From Zophobihabitans entericus (lineage in GTDB: Bacteria; Pseudomonadota; Gammaproteobacteria; Enterobacterales; Orbaceae): a DNA stretch of 64,000 nt. Shown here one piece after another: positions 8,961 to 57,621 of this stretch. The stretch lies in the NCBI RefSeq assembly GCF_011745665.1, contig NZ_CP050253.1:781418-845417 (forward strand), read 5' to 3'. How positions within the stretch are numbered: position 1 is the first letter of the stretch; each line of letters begins with the position of its first letter. The notes under the pieces are model-generated. The model was not told where the DNA came from. It ran no database searches and was given only the letters and a program-made list of their open reading frames with translations. The translations under genes were made by a program, and so were the position numbers.

Positions 8961-9559
8961 TGATTTTCACTCATTTTCTTTAATTTTGAAAAGTAAGTAA
9001 TATCAACATAATTGGGTAGAACTATAGCCTATTTTAATAATGATTAAATTAATAGACGTTAATAAAAGTCTGTTTTAACATCACATACTCATTATTTAGT
9101 TAGTCTTTTATTATAATTGTATTATGTGAGTATGCTAATTTTATAGAGACTGACAAATTGTCAATCTACTTCATATTTTGTATTTAATATTTCAACAAAT
9201 TAAATACGACTAAATTAAATATTGTACAATTTATTGATACTAAAATAAGTTATTCATGCCAATTAAGTTATTTTACTTACTGCTATATTCTTGTTTTTAC
9301 AATGTCTGATGCCATTGCTGCACCGTAAAAACAAATAAATTTAGGGCTTATTTTCTGTGTATTTGCATAAAACAGTTTAATAAATAAATTTTATGCAAAT
9401 GCACTTGCCTATTATTCACTTTTCGGCTCCATATATCAAGAGCCATAACCTGATATTTAAAAACTTTTATTAACAATCTTTTATATATGATAGAATGATT
9501 CTGTGAAATAAAACTCTGAAGCCTTTAAACCTAAGTAAACGGTTGTTTAAACAATCACT
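8961..9559. promoter_or_regulatory. long AT-rich divergent intergenic region between rne and moaA
   Basis: About 600 bp contain no gene that I can support. Both rne (leftward) and moaA (rightward) must have promoters here. In E. coli the rne 5' UTR is 361 nt and binds RNase E for autoregulation, so a long leader is expected. I see one strong inverted repeat (9357-9404, listed separately) and a near-perfect palindrome at 9541-9556 (GGTTGTTTAAACAATC) just before the moaA leader. I cannot place promoters with confidence because the whole region is AT-rich. Confidence 0.5.
9357..9404. repeat. 16-bp inverted repeat in rne-moaA intergenic region
   Basis: The arms ATTTGCATAAAA (9361-9372) and TTTTATGCAAAT (9389-9400) are perfect, and extend outward by GTG/CAC with one G-T pair. 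The loop is 16 nt and AT-only apart from one C and one G. No T-tract follows on either strand, so a regulatory hairpin or protein-binding palindrome is more likely than a terminator. Confidence 0.6.
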
Positions 9560-9648
9560 TTATATGGATTAATGGCCGTGACATTAACAGGTGCCACCGG
9601 GTGTAACGCAGAAATGCTTATGCCTCCCGACTGGAAAGGTGTTTTTAC
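9560..9648 (+). promoter_or_regulatory. probable molybdenum cofactor (Moco) riboswitch upstream of moaA
   Basis: The leader between the upstream palindrome and moaA is GC-richer than its surroundings and highly structured. It has GCA-GAAA-TGC, a GNRA-capped stem at 9608-9617, and CACCGGGTG at 9595-9603. It ends TGCCTCCCGACTGGAAAGGT (9621-9640), where TCC/GGA and CCT/AGG can pair and occlude the Shine-Dalgarno-like AAAGGT. Conserved GNRA-capped helices and control of the ribosome-binding site are features of the Moco RNA motif found before moaA in gammaproteobacteria. The identification rests on motif recall, not on a covariance search. Confidence 0.7.
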
Positions 9649-9652
9649 TGAC

Positions 9653-10624
9653 ATGCAACTCATTGATAATTATCAACGAAGATTTCGTTATCTTCGCCTA
9701 TCTGTAACTGAACGCTGTAATTTTCAGTGTCAGTATTGCTTGCCTGATGGCTATCAGGCCGGTAATCAATCGTTTCTCTCTTTTAATGAACTGGAAAATG
9801 TGGTTAAAGGTTTTGTCGGACTGGGGATCAATAAACTTCGTTTAACAGGTGGTGAACCAACGTTACGCCGTGATTTTACTGATTTGGTTGCAATGGTAAG
9901 TGAACACTCACAAATTAAAACAGTGGCTGTCACAACTAATGGCTATCGGGTACTTTCTGATGTACATCACTGGCAAGCTGCAGGACTTAATGCGATTAAT
10001 ATTAGTGTGGATAGTTTATCAGCTAATAGCTTTGCATTAATCACCGGGCAGGATAAATTAAAAGAAACCTTAGCTGGGGTAGAAAGGGCGCTTGAAGTCG
10101 GGATTCCTTCCGTTAAAATTAATACGGTTTTGTTAAAAGGTTTAAGTGACAAATTAAGCGATTACCTGAACTGGATTAAAGATCGTAAAGTTTCACTCAG
10201 ATTTATTGAATTGATGGAAACCGGTGAAAGTGCTACGTTCTTTCAGCGCTATCACACCTCTGGTGCCGTTATTGAAAAACAACTTATCGAACAGGGTTGG
10301 CTACTGGAGTTGAAAGGTGAACTGGATGGGCCAGCTAAAGTCTATTCACATCCTGATTATCAGGGGAAAATCGGTCTGATTATGCCGTATTCAAAGAACT
10401 TTTGTCAGAGCTGTAATCGCCTGCGGGTTTCTTCATCCGGTAAGTTTCATTTTTGTCTATTTGGTAATGAGGGAATTGATATTCGTGATTTACTACAAAA
10501 TAGTAGTCAAAGCGATGATCTTAAAAATAGAATCTTACATGCGCTGGAGCGTAAACCAGAAAGCCATTTCTTGCAACAACACCAAACCGGGGTATTAAAA
10601 AACCTGTCACAAATTGGTGGTTAG
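9653..10624 (+). CDS. moaA: GTP 3',8-cyclase MoaA (molybdenum cofactor biosynthesis)
   Basis: MoaA is a radical-SAM enzyme that converts GTP to 3',8-cyclo-7,8-dihydro-GTP, the first step of molybdopterin synthesis. The N-terminal SAM cluster motif is CNFQCQYC (residues 18-25), followed by [10 protein letters not shown]. The C-terminal cluster is [18 protein letters not shown], and the protein ends in the essential double glycine (SQIGG). An upstream in-frame start at 9572 would add 27 residues unlike any MoaA and would lie in the riboswitch; ATG 9653 gives 323 residues against 329 in E. coli. The usual partners moaBCDE do not follow. The 3' end overlaps the convergent gluQRS by 18 bp. Confidence 0.95.
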
Positions 10625-13507: not shown

Positions 13508-13566
13508 ATGCAAATAAATCAATAATTTAAATATTTTCAACCCCTTGATTTATTTGCATTTTTTTT
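13508..13566 (+). terminator. intrinsic terminator after ydfG
   Basis: A perfect 15-bp stem (ATGCAAATAAATCAA at 13508-13522 with its complement at 13545-13559) is followed by eight T residues. The 22-nt loop is long, but stem and T-tract are strong. Confidence 0.8.
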
Positions 13567-41550: not shown

Positions 41551-41580
41551 CAGGTTTATTTACTCATAAAAATTTTAAAT

Positions 41581-41630
41581 AAATCAATGGGTTATATTTT
41601 TTTGTGGTTATAGGGCTAACTCATTGATTT
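41581..41630 (+). terminator. large inverted repeat after ribD
   Basis: AAATCAATGGGTTA (41581-41594) pairs with TAACTCATTGATTT (41617-41630) with one G-T position; the 22-nt loop contains seven T residues. It is a probable transcription end of ribD, although no T-run directly follows the stem. Confidence 0.5.
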
Positions 41631-41733
41631 TATAAGAAATTATCTTTTTTTTGTCATTCAAATCGAGATAACCTATTTTTATCGGTAAAACCTATTCTTT
41701 TTTATCTTTCTAATACTCTGTTGCAATTAATTT

Positions 41734-55590: not shown

Positions 55591-56835
55591 GTGTCTAAAC
55601 GCAGAGTTGTTGTAACTGGAATGGGTCTACTATCTCCTGTTGGTAATACTGTTGAATCTACTTGGCAAGCACTGTTAGCCGGACAGAGTGGTATTGAACT
55701 CATCGAACATTTTGATACGACCCCATTTGCTACAAAATTCGCAGGAATGGTCAAAGACTTTAACTGTGAAGACTACAATATTTCTCGTAAAGATGCTCGC
55801 AAAATGGATTATTTTATCCAGTATGGTATTGCAGCAGGCATGCAGGCGATGCAGGATGCGGGAATTGAAGTTACGGAAGAAAATGCAACCCGTATTGGTA
55901 CAGCAATTGGTTCAGGTATTGGTGGTTTAGGTTTAATCGAAGAAAATCATAGTGCACTTGTACATGGTGGTCCTCGTAAAATCAGTCCGTTCTTTGTACC
56001 GTCAACCATTGTGAATATGATTTCTGGTCATCTTTCTATTATTTATGGATTAAGAGGTCCGAGTATTACAATTGCAACAGCTTGTTCATCCGGCGTACAT
56101 AATATTGGTCATGCTGCGCGTATGATTACTTATGGTGATGCTGATGTGATGCTGGCAGGCGGTGGCGAAAAAGCGAGTACTCCACTTGGTATTGGTGGCT
56201 TTGGTGCTGCTCGTGCATTATCAACACGTAATGATGATCCTAAAGGTGCAAGTCGCCCGTGGGATAAAGATCGTGATGGTTTCGTACTTGGTGATGGTGC
56301 CGGTATTATGGTACTTGAAGAGTATGAACACGCTAAAAAACGTGGTGCTAAGATCTACGCCGAAGTTGTTGGCTTTGGTATGAGTAGTGATGCATATCAT
56401 ATGACTTCACCTCCGGAAGACGGGGCAGGTGCTGCACTATCAATGGCAAATGCGATTAAAGACGCAGGTATTACACCGGCAGATGTTGGTTATGTGAATG
56501 CACATGGTACATCAACACCAGCAGGTGATAAGGCTGAAGCTCAGGCAGTTAAATCGGTATTTAAAGAAGATGCTCATAAAGTCATGGTTAGCTCAACTAA
56601 GTCGATGATTGGTCACTTACTTGGTGCGGCAGGTGCTGTAGAGTCAATCTTTACTGTTTTAGCACTACGCGATCAGGTTGTTCCGCCAACGATTAACTTA
56701 GATAACCCGGATGAAGGTTGCGATTTGGACTTTGTTCCACACACAGCGCGTCAGGTAAAAAATATGGAATATGCTCTTTGTAACTCATTTGGTTTTGGTG
56801 GTACAAACGGTTCTGTATTATTTAAGAAAATCTAA
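55591..56835 (+). CDS. fabF: 3-oxoacyl-ACP synthase II
   Basis: FabF elongates acyl-ACP and governs temperature-dependent unsaturated fatty-acid content. The 414-residue product (E. coli 413) starts at GTG 55591 behind an excellent AGGAGGG. The catalytic triad is Cys in [18 protein letters not shown] (about 164), His in [15 protein letters not shown] (about 304) and His in [13 protein letters not shown] (about 341). It closes the fab cluster. Confidence 0.97.
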
Positions 56836-56854: not shown

Positions 56855-56890
56855 AAAAGGATACATAGTGATATGTGTCCTTTTTTGTTT
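56855..56890 (+). terminator. intrinsic terminator after fabF
   Basis: AAAAGGATACATA / TATGTGTCCTTTT (56855-56867 and 56872-56884) form a 13-bp stem with one G-T pair and GTGA loop, continuing into a T-tract. Confidence 0.85.
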
Positions 56891-56904
56891 TTAGGGTATT
56901 AGCA

Positions 56905-57215
56905 AGGTTCTGGGCGGGGCTCACGCCCCGCTTGGCATAATTCCTGGTATTGTTGTTTGTTATTAGCATTGGGAGTGGGGCGGACTGCGCCGCCCTGGCG
57001 CAATATTATTGGTGATGTTGAATAGTCTGTGGGTTTGATGGCCTAGCGCACACCATAGGCGCCCGCTCGAGGGCTCGCTAAGACCTATGGAATACGCTCT
57101 CCATCAAATTCATCGTTCTAAAGAACTGATAGCACGACTACACCGTACAACATACAAAGGCTAATGATTTCACTGCTCTAAGATCTATAAAGCGCGGCTG
57201 TGCCGCGCAACTCAA
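56905..57215. repeat. cluster of GC-rich palindromes and a diverged 60-bp tandem repeat
   Basis: This roughly 310-bp gap between fabF and the next gene holds no gene that I can support but is full of symmetry. Three GC-rich hairpins occur: GCGGGGC-TCAC-GCCCCGC (56914-56931), GGGCGG-ACTGCG-CCGCCC (56978-56995) and GCGCGGC-TGT-GCCGCGC (57192-57208). A nested long stem spans 57034-57108. The blocks at about 57111-57151 and 57171-57211 are diverged copies at exactly 60-bp offset, the first being a G-to-A/C-to-T-rich version of the second. They look like dispersed REP-like elements. GC content is far above the surroundings. Confidence 0.65.
57034..57108. repeat. nested long imperfect hairpin within the repeat cluster
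   Basis: TTTGATGG (57034-57041) pairs with CCATCAAA (57101-57108), AGCG with CGCT, and CCATAGG (57053-57059) with CCTATGG (57084-57090), all around a central CGCTCGAGGGCTCGC. Pairing is in register, so a single 75-nt structured stem can form on either strand. Confidence 0.6.
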
Positions 57216-57237: not shown

Positions 57238-57621
57238 TTATTTATCTTTATTTTGATAAAACACCTGCGTTGGCCTCGTTGTTGGTATCTTTACTTGCCA
57301 GTCTTTGTAATTCTCATCAACAGTCTTATCACAAGAAATCTGAATATACCAAAATCGATTTACCGGGTGACCGGCAAGCCTGAACCATTTGGCCTGTAAG
57401 GGGACTGTACATTTTGGAACAACGATTTTAGCATTGGGTTCAGAAGTTACCCAGCTAGTGTTATTTTTAAGATTATATTGATCCATAAATTGCACTGCTT
57501 TTTCATTAATAAATTTTAAGCCGTGAATTGTTTCATTGCCTTCATCCATTTGCGAATAAGTTGGCTGCGAAGCCGTCAAATACAAGGGGAAAAGCAGTAT
57601 CACTAAAGGAAAATATTTCAT
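57238..57621 (-). CDS. small secreted protein of unknown function (127 aa)
   Basis: I do not recognise this family. The product has a clear Sec signal peptide (MKYFPLVILLFPLYLTAS, cleavage around residues 17-19) and a mature part of about 108 residues. Two cysteines (VPKCTVPL and QISCDKT) could form a disulfide in the periplasm. The mature part is mixed in composition with several Trp/Tyr (WFRLAGHPVNRFWYIQ). It is transcribed toward the repeat cluster, away from recC. It has normal low GC, unlike the neighbouring repeats. Confidence 0.65.
   Translation of the reverse strand: MKYFPLVILLFPLYLTASQPTYSQMDEGNETIHGLKFINEKAVQFMDQYNLKNNTSWVTSEPNAKIVVPKCTVPLQAKWFRLAGHPVNRFWYIQISCDKTVDENYKDWQVKIPTTRPTQVFYQNKDK

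Follow-up and report, generated by a model that had tools for sequence, protein, structure and literature searches.

A BIME-1-like family of composite palindromic repeats in Zophobihabitans entericus and its putative role as a two-way terminator

A cluster of GC-rich palindromes lies between fabF and a small open reading frame (ORF) in Zophobihabitans entericus, whose genome is 2.7 Mb with 39.5% GC (table 1 of PMC13372188). The locus raises the question of whether such a cluster is a local peculiarity or one copy of a mobile or structural repeat family and, if the latter, what kind of family this is and what it may do. It was found in a stretch of 64,000 nucleotides, referred to here as the window.

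The fabF copy and its surroundings

The element spans window positions 56897 to 57211 (Table 1). The three perfect GC palindromes and the 75-nt nested stem of the original prediction are all present, and folding of the region beats that of shuffled sequences on both strands (z of -4.32 and -4.29; 0 of 100 shuffles as good). The setting, described as low in GC, is moderate rather than very low, with the window at 40.5%. The long hairpin B, often present on the A side of other copies, has no match here, and the center, 62 bp long, contains one match to the integration host factor (IHF) consensus. The fabF locus carries a composite repeat that is truncated on the A/B side in this copy.

Table 1. 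Parts of the window copy and neighboring features, in window positions
Feature	Position	Strand	Remarks
fabF	55591-56835	+	
fabF intrinsic terminator	56855-56889	+	13-nt arms, 92% paired, then T-run; outside the element
E unit, outermost on fabF side	56897-56933	-	nhmmer 29 bits; GC hairpin/perfect palindrome at 56914-56931
D unit	56958-57004	-	53 bits; small GC hairpin/perfect palindrome at 56978-56995
C unit, subtype C1, long imperfect hairpin	57029-57107	-	86 bits; compensatory changes across the family
Nested outer stem of C unit	57034-57108		75 nt
A', diverged A-type unit	57117-57151	-	28.9 bits; variant shared with genome 2183092-2183125
A unit, outermost on small-ORF side	57170-57211	-	46.5 bits; GC hairpin/perfect palindrome at 57192-57208
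127-aa ORF	57238-57621	-	Convergent with fabF; upstream of recC

The two A-type units had been described as a tandem duplication of a ~40-bp unit at 60-bp spacing, looking as if an older copy had decayed by transitions. The spacing between the 21-mers at 57131 and 57191 is indeed exactly 60 bp, and their 7 differences in 21 positions are all transitions. The ~40-bp unit is recognizable in these 21-mers and not over its full length, as the 40-base frames from 57121 and 57181 agree at only 18 of 40 positions, and decay explains the divergence in part at most: a nearly identical derived variant lies beside a C1 hairpin at genome 2183092-2183125, so that A' represents, in part or in full, an old subvariant that both loci share.

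The two relatives with the most similar RecC (63% and 62% identity) have fabF and recC side by side, with neither the element nor the 127-aa ORF between them; the sole named RecC match is that of Candidatus Schmidhempelia bombi (61%), also of the Orbaceae. The 127-aa ORF has no NCBIfam match.

A composite family with unlike inner ends

The units are not unique to this locus, and the REP/BIME-like, genome-wide family suspected at the outset is borne out by many copies, a mosaic arrangement, and a position at gene 3' ends. The fabF copy matches at least 84 pieces of its own genome at E ≤ 10, the weakest being at chance level, and the catalogue comprises at least 71 clusters with 313 units in 67 merged stretches around such hits; the clusters make up 29,948 bp of the 2.67-Mb genome. 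It is pooled from several searches in which the best 40 of 81, 40 of 63, and 47 of 481 candidates were scored, and clusters may be missed. No unit is found at E ≤ 1 in the 300 kb of the organism's own DNA picked as a hit-free control.

There are five unit types. A, D, and E (68, 71, and 77 copies; 216 small units together) are small GC hairpins, and B and C (27 and 70 copies) are long imperfect hairpins of ~80 nt. The usual order is small hairpins, a long hairpin, an AT-rich center, and then the mirror image, commonly as A-A-B-center-C-D-E or E-D-C-center-C-D-E, and clusters reach 1,017 bp. Copies are mosaic and often truncated, with outer ends that differ in the number and type of units. The polarity string is LR in 52 of the 71 clusters, left only in 8, right only in 4, and other in 7, a count that is partly built in, because layout and likeness by eye also served to assign polarity to the unit types. 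Many D (34 of 60) and E units (45 of 69) carry a TTAGC head ahead of the palindrome, but only 3 of 56 A units do.

Both long hairpins have covarying stems. The C alignment takes in 58 of 59 near-full-length copies (the copy at L006:1615-1681, with an apical deletion, is omitted, and copies found later, to a total of 70, are not added). Over its 52 distinct rows, 8 of 22 pairs have changed on both sides and pairing extends to 98.3% of cells, compared to 26 to 43% when the pairing is slid. Compensatory changes are present in 5 of 22 pairs of the B hairpin, and for B and C together 98% of cells are paired versus 15 to 43% with pairing slid. Out of 500 column shuffles for each hairpin, 4 reach the 8 pairs of C and none reaches the 5 of B. 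The modeled strand of C has 134 G.T-type and 7 A.C-type cells (52 distinct rows), an excess of G.T cells which suggests that this is the strand that folds; B has no strand bias (10 versus 8 cells). Median pairwise identity among C copies is 84%.

The C units split into stem subtypes (C1, C1p, C2, C3, and C4), and the long hairpins that face each other across a center are consistently unlike. Among the 31 elements, out of 71 clusters, that can be counted in this way, none has a same-subtype pair where 6.4 are expected (P = 0.0004; 100,000 shuffles), a probability limited by the nonindependence of elements copied from one another. Each pair consists of one of C1/C2 (or a variant) and one of B/C1p/C3/C4 (or a variant); these two classes were drawn after seeing the pairs, and the subtype shuffle is independent of them. 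Three atypical C copies (33483, 694928, and 2347592) were subtyped by eye. Exceptions to this pairing rule are clusters 486583 and 708709, which join C1p or C4 to A units without B, and cluster 2616355, which has two C2 hairpins in the same orientation. The 31 centers have 181 mutual matches at E ≤ 1e-3, 143 of them in the same orientation, and because the centers are homologous and the end subtypes always unlike, the composites have most likely been copied as whole units. A complete element consists of two nonequivalent mirror halves around an AT-rich center with IHF-type motifs. Whole composites would have been copied around the chromosome, and they now lie mostly between convergent gene 3' ends.

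The IHF-type sites of the centers are of the AATCAANNNNTTA type. The IHF consensus has 23 matches in the 31 centers (6,741 bp), with 15 centers containing a match and 16 none; the matches are not independent, the centers being related by descent. Each of 11 permuted motifs has at most 3 matches in the same centers, and a first count over 46 spacers gave 20 IHF matches, whereas 200 shuffles averaged 2.4 and never exceeded 9. The outer flanks, with 31 matches over 17.0 kb, have a density of 1.8 per kb (3.4 in the centers), and 47 matches lie in 66.5 kb of the organism's own control intergenic DNA; the motif is thus common across the intergenic DNA of this genome. A gene for IHF-alpha is present, and IHF may bind and bend the center, as judged from these motifs.

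A separate dispersed palindrome, AT-rich and of the AATAAAATCAA...TTGATTTTATT type, carries two inverted IHF-type motifs and is responsible for part of the background of IHF matches. It is present in 12 of the 31 centers and also alone in intergenic regions, with sites (±1 base) at window 13512-13555 and 41577-41634 and at L178:6847-6888, L182:15541-15583, and L184:14443-14484; loose matches number 19 in 300 kb of the organism's own control DNA (shuffle mean, 4.4), and a relative has 12 in 400 kb.

Position between convergent genes and terminator likeness

Clusters are concentrated where genes converge. For the 68 clusters with both flanks called (genes are from our own codon-usage ORF caller, and three clusters with an uncalled flank fall outside this number), 43 are between convergent genes, 13 are '++', 10 are '--', and 2 are divergent; the window copy is tallied as '++' though it appears convergent, because the caller missed the 127-aa ORF. 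By comparison, 24 of 194 gene pairs in the 300-kb own control and 36 of 273 pairs in 400 kb of a relative are convergent (Fisher P = 3e-15 and 5e-16, respectively). The choice of an own control without hits lowers its convergent count; in the relative, samples were taken every 100 kb. Gaps between divergent genes are underrepresented among the cluster sites (2 of 68 versus 25 of 194; P = 0.02).

Neutral, decayed repeats could come to lie in this way if they were tolerated between convergent genes and insertions elsewhere were purged by selection. The depletion of divergent gaps is as expected under such purifying selection, and the divergence of the copies, as seen in C, their mosaic build, and their frequent truncation agree with decay. 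Compensatory changes and the one-sided terminator likeness described below are unexpected from decay alone, although both could date from past activity, and we consider this explanation somewhat unlikely.

Among cluster ends of the usual polarity, 51 of 62 on the left and 46 of 60 on the right are faced by a gene 3' end; the end unit faces a gene start at the other 25 of 122. In a T-run terminator test, 91 of the 216 small units pass and 125 fail when read inward, from the flanking gene, and only 2 of 216 pass when read outward. The terminator-like units are only mildly enriched in the outermost positions (48 of 95 versus 41 of 121 inner units; P = 0.018). Of the 112 gene 3' ends that face a cluster, 47 lie so close that the stop codon is within 40 bp of the first unit, and these lack a separate terminator. 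Facing gene ends at 40 to 250 bp from the cluster have a separate terminator in 42 of 60 cases, compared to 12 of 36 control ends, for which gap lengths differ. The small units thus look, as far as sequence can tell, like terminators for incoming transcription, which may be the sole ones at some genes and a backup elsewhere; with a terminator of its own at fabF and at those 42 of 60 ends, termination by the element would often be redundant.

An alternative is that the units are 3'-untranslated-region hairpins that stabilize mRNAs and owe their position to selection rather than to mobility. Both the 3' position and the proximity of the first unit to the stop codon at 47 of the 112 facing ends fit this reading, as does the strong folding of the region as RNA. 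However, a terminator precedes the cluster at most of the more distant facing ends (the same 42 of 60), and the better-pairing strand of C is not the one transcribed from the nearest gene, as inferred from layout. We consider a stabilizing role unlikely.

The reading that we favor is of a two-way terminator or insulator block, whose polar small units would act on transcription entering from the flanking gene and not on that leaving, thus halting read-through between convergent genes while IHF bends the center. The 25 of 68 clusters that are not between convergent genes and the 19 of 71 that are not LR count against this.

Relation to known elements and to a mobilizer

The closest likeness in plan is to BIME-1, also named RIB or RIP: in all 31 elements two oppositely oriented palindromic units of unlike type are paired. 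The BIME-1 of E. coli has one Y and one Z1 unit (PMC1187871), and its center interacts with IHF (PMC2817692); REPs are frequent between convergent genes (PMC1525189). The present family differs in its ~80-nt hairpins, its outer arrays of polar terminator-like hairpins, its clusters of up to 1,017 bp, and the lack of a Y1 transposase match, and its unit consensus is, by eye, unlike the E. coli sequences listed in PMC2817692.

REPs and REPINs are similarly short extragenic palindromes at high copy number, here represented by the 216 small units. REPINs, too, form mosaic clusters and seem to be copied as pairs of inverted palindromes (PMC3116915). REPs and BIMEs are commonly ascribed to RAYT transposases (PMC2817692, PMC3116915), and the original prediction had pointed to such a gene. 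This link finds no support here. There is no Y1 transposase (TnpA/RAYT; PF01797) match at E ≤ 1 in this genome, of which the assembly is scored as 91.69% complete, with a search that gives matches in control genomes such as E. coli, and GTAG is found within 10 nt before the palindrome at only 2 of the 185 located palindromes (among the 216 small units). The centers of 63 to 336 bp between long hairpins are a further difference from REPINs. With these two defining features undetected (a RAYT) or nearly absent (GTAG heads), we do not class the family with the REP/RAYT elements.

It could still be a true REP/REPIN-BIME system, moved by a since-lost RAYT that recognized the units as single-stranded hairpins. 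Such an origin would agree with the inverted palindrome pairs, the mosaic clusters, the extragenic 3' position, and the compensatory changes, and the strand bias of C is as expected of single-stranded folding. Against it are the rarity of Y1 matches in the family (2 of 44 genomes, and not this one), the near absence of GTAG, the length of the ~80-nt hairpins, which exceeds the ~20- to 60-bp range of REPs (PMC3116915), and the lack of strand bias in B. We regard a lost RAYT as unlikely.

Correia/NEMIS miniature inverted-repeat transposable elements (MITEs) are also small, noncoding, and dispersed, with an IHF motif (PMC2229807), but the present elements have variable mosaic outer ends instead of fixed terminal inverted repeats, and two unlike inner ends. 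A known structured RNA was rejected, as the window element has no Rfam match at gathering level. At E ≤ 1, seven element loci gave six Rfam matches; the one above gathering is an RpsF leader (L010:2867-2951) outside the cluster, and a subthreshold match that overlaps a cluster (L026:1609-1903) has 26 bits against a gathering score of 245. For group II introns, attC sites, and retrons, coverage is that of these Rfam scans. A plasmid, phage, or viral origin was likewise rejected, with no match to the window element, a 631-base element, or the exact C and B cores.

The family is probably lineage-specific at the sensitivity of the C-model, whole-element, and exact C-core searches, at which remote relatives could be missed. 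The C model matches in its own genome and in none of 98 relatives (under strict filters, with at most the best 47 candidates per genome), and a 621-base element is found by BLAST in its own genome and in none of 295 relatives (best two candidates per genome). The exact C core has 0 matches in genome_contigs, where own or near-identical records may be left out, and blastn of the 621-base element with 20,395 E. coli records gave no match at E ≤ 1e-5, a search that short units could escape. In 400 kb of a sister genus (G002), there is no large intergenic family, with 9 of 183 intergenic regions cross-matching, at most three each, and there is one weak B-like match (9.2 bits; E = 0.72). In the open-access library searched, no paper joins Orbaceae with "repetitive extragenic palindromic" or Zophobihabitans with "palindrom".

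Taken together, these elements probably constitute a lineage-specific BIME-1-like composite family, with a putative two-way terminator or insulator role and a probable origin as non-autonomous mobile elements. Their mobilizer may have been lost or be of another kind, and does not seem to be a Y1 transposase encoded here. Mobility is a prediction, the comparison being of one genome with diverged relatives. More tentatively, the family may be a mobile, RAYT-independent counterpart of BIME-1 with terminator arrays in mirror orientation and a center bent by IHF, which installs or keeps two-way terminators between convergent genes and whose plan evolved convergently from unrelated sequence in one Orbaceae lineage. 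The BIME-1 plan without a detected Y1 gene or sequence kinship offers a natural test of function versus transposase by-product, with two-way termination and the handling of supercoils between convergent genes as candidate functions for which the plan would be kept, and the one-sided terminator likeness makes function directly testable.

Three other features were noted in passing. The region L183 7819-19535 (genome ~1.508 to 1.520 Mb) has long gene-free stretches and internal repeats of 67 to 94% identity and may represent a repetitive gene region in decay. A 105-bp intergenic sequence occurs in two identical copies at L179 6109-6213 and 7006-7110, and the window carries a molybdenum cofactor riboswitch (Rfam RF01055) at 9502-9657 (+ strand; 63 bits).
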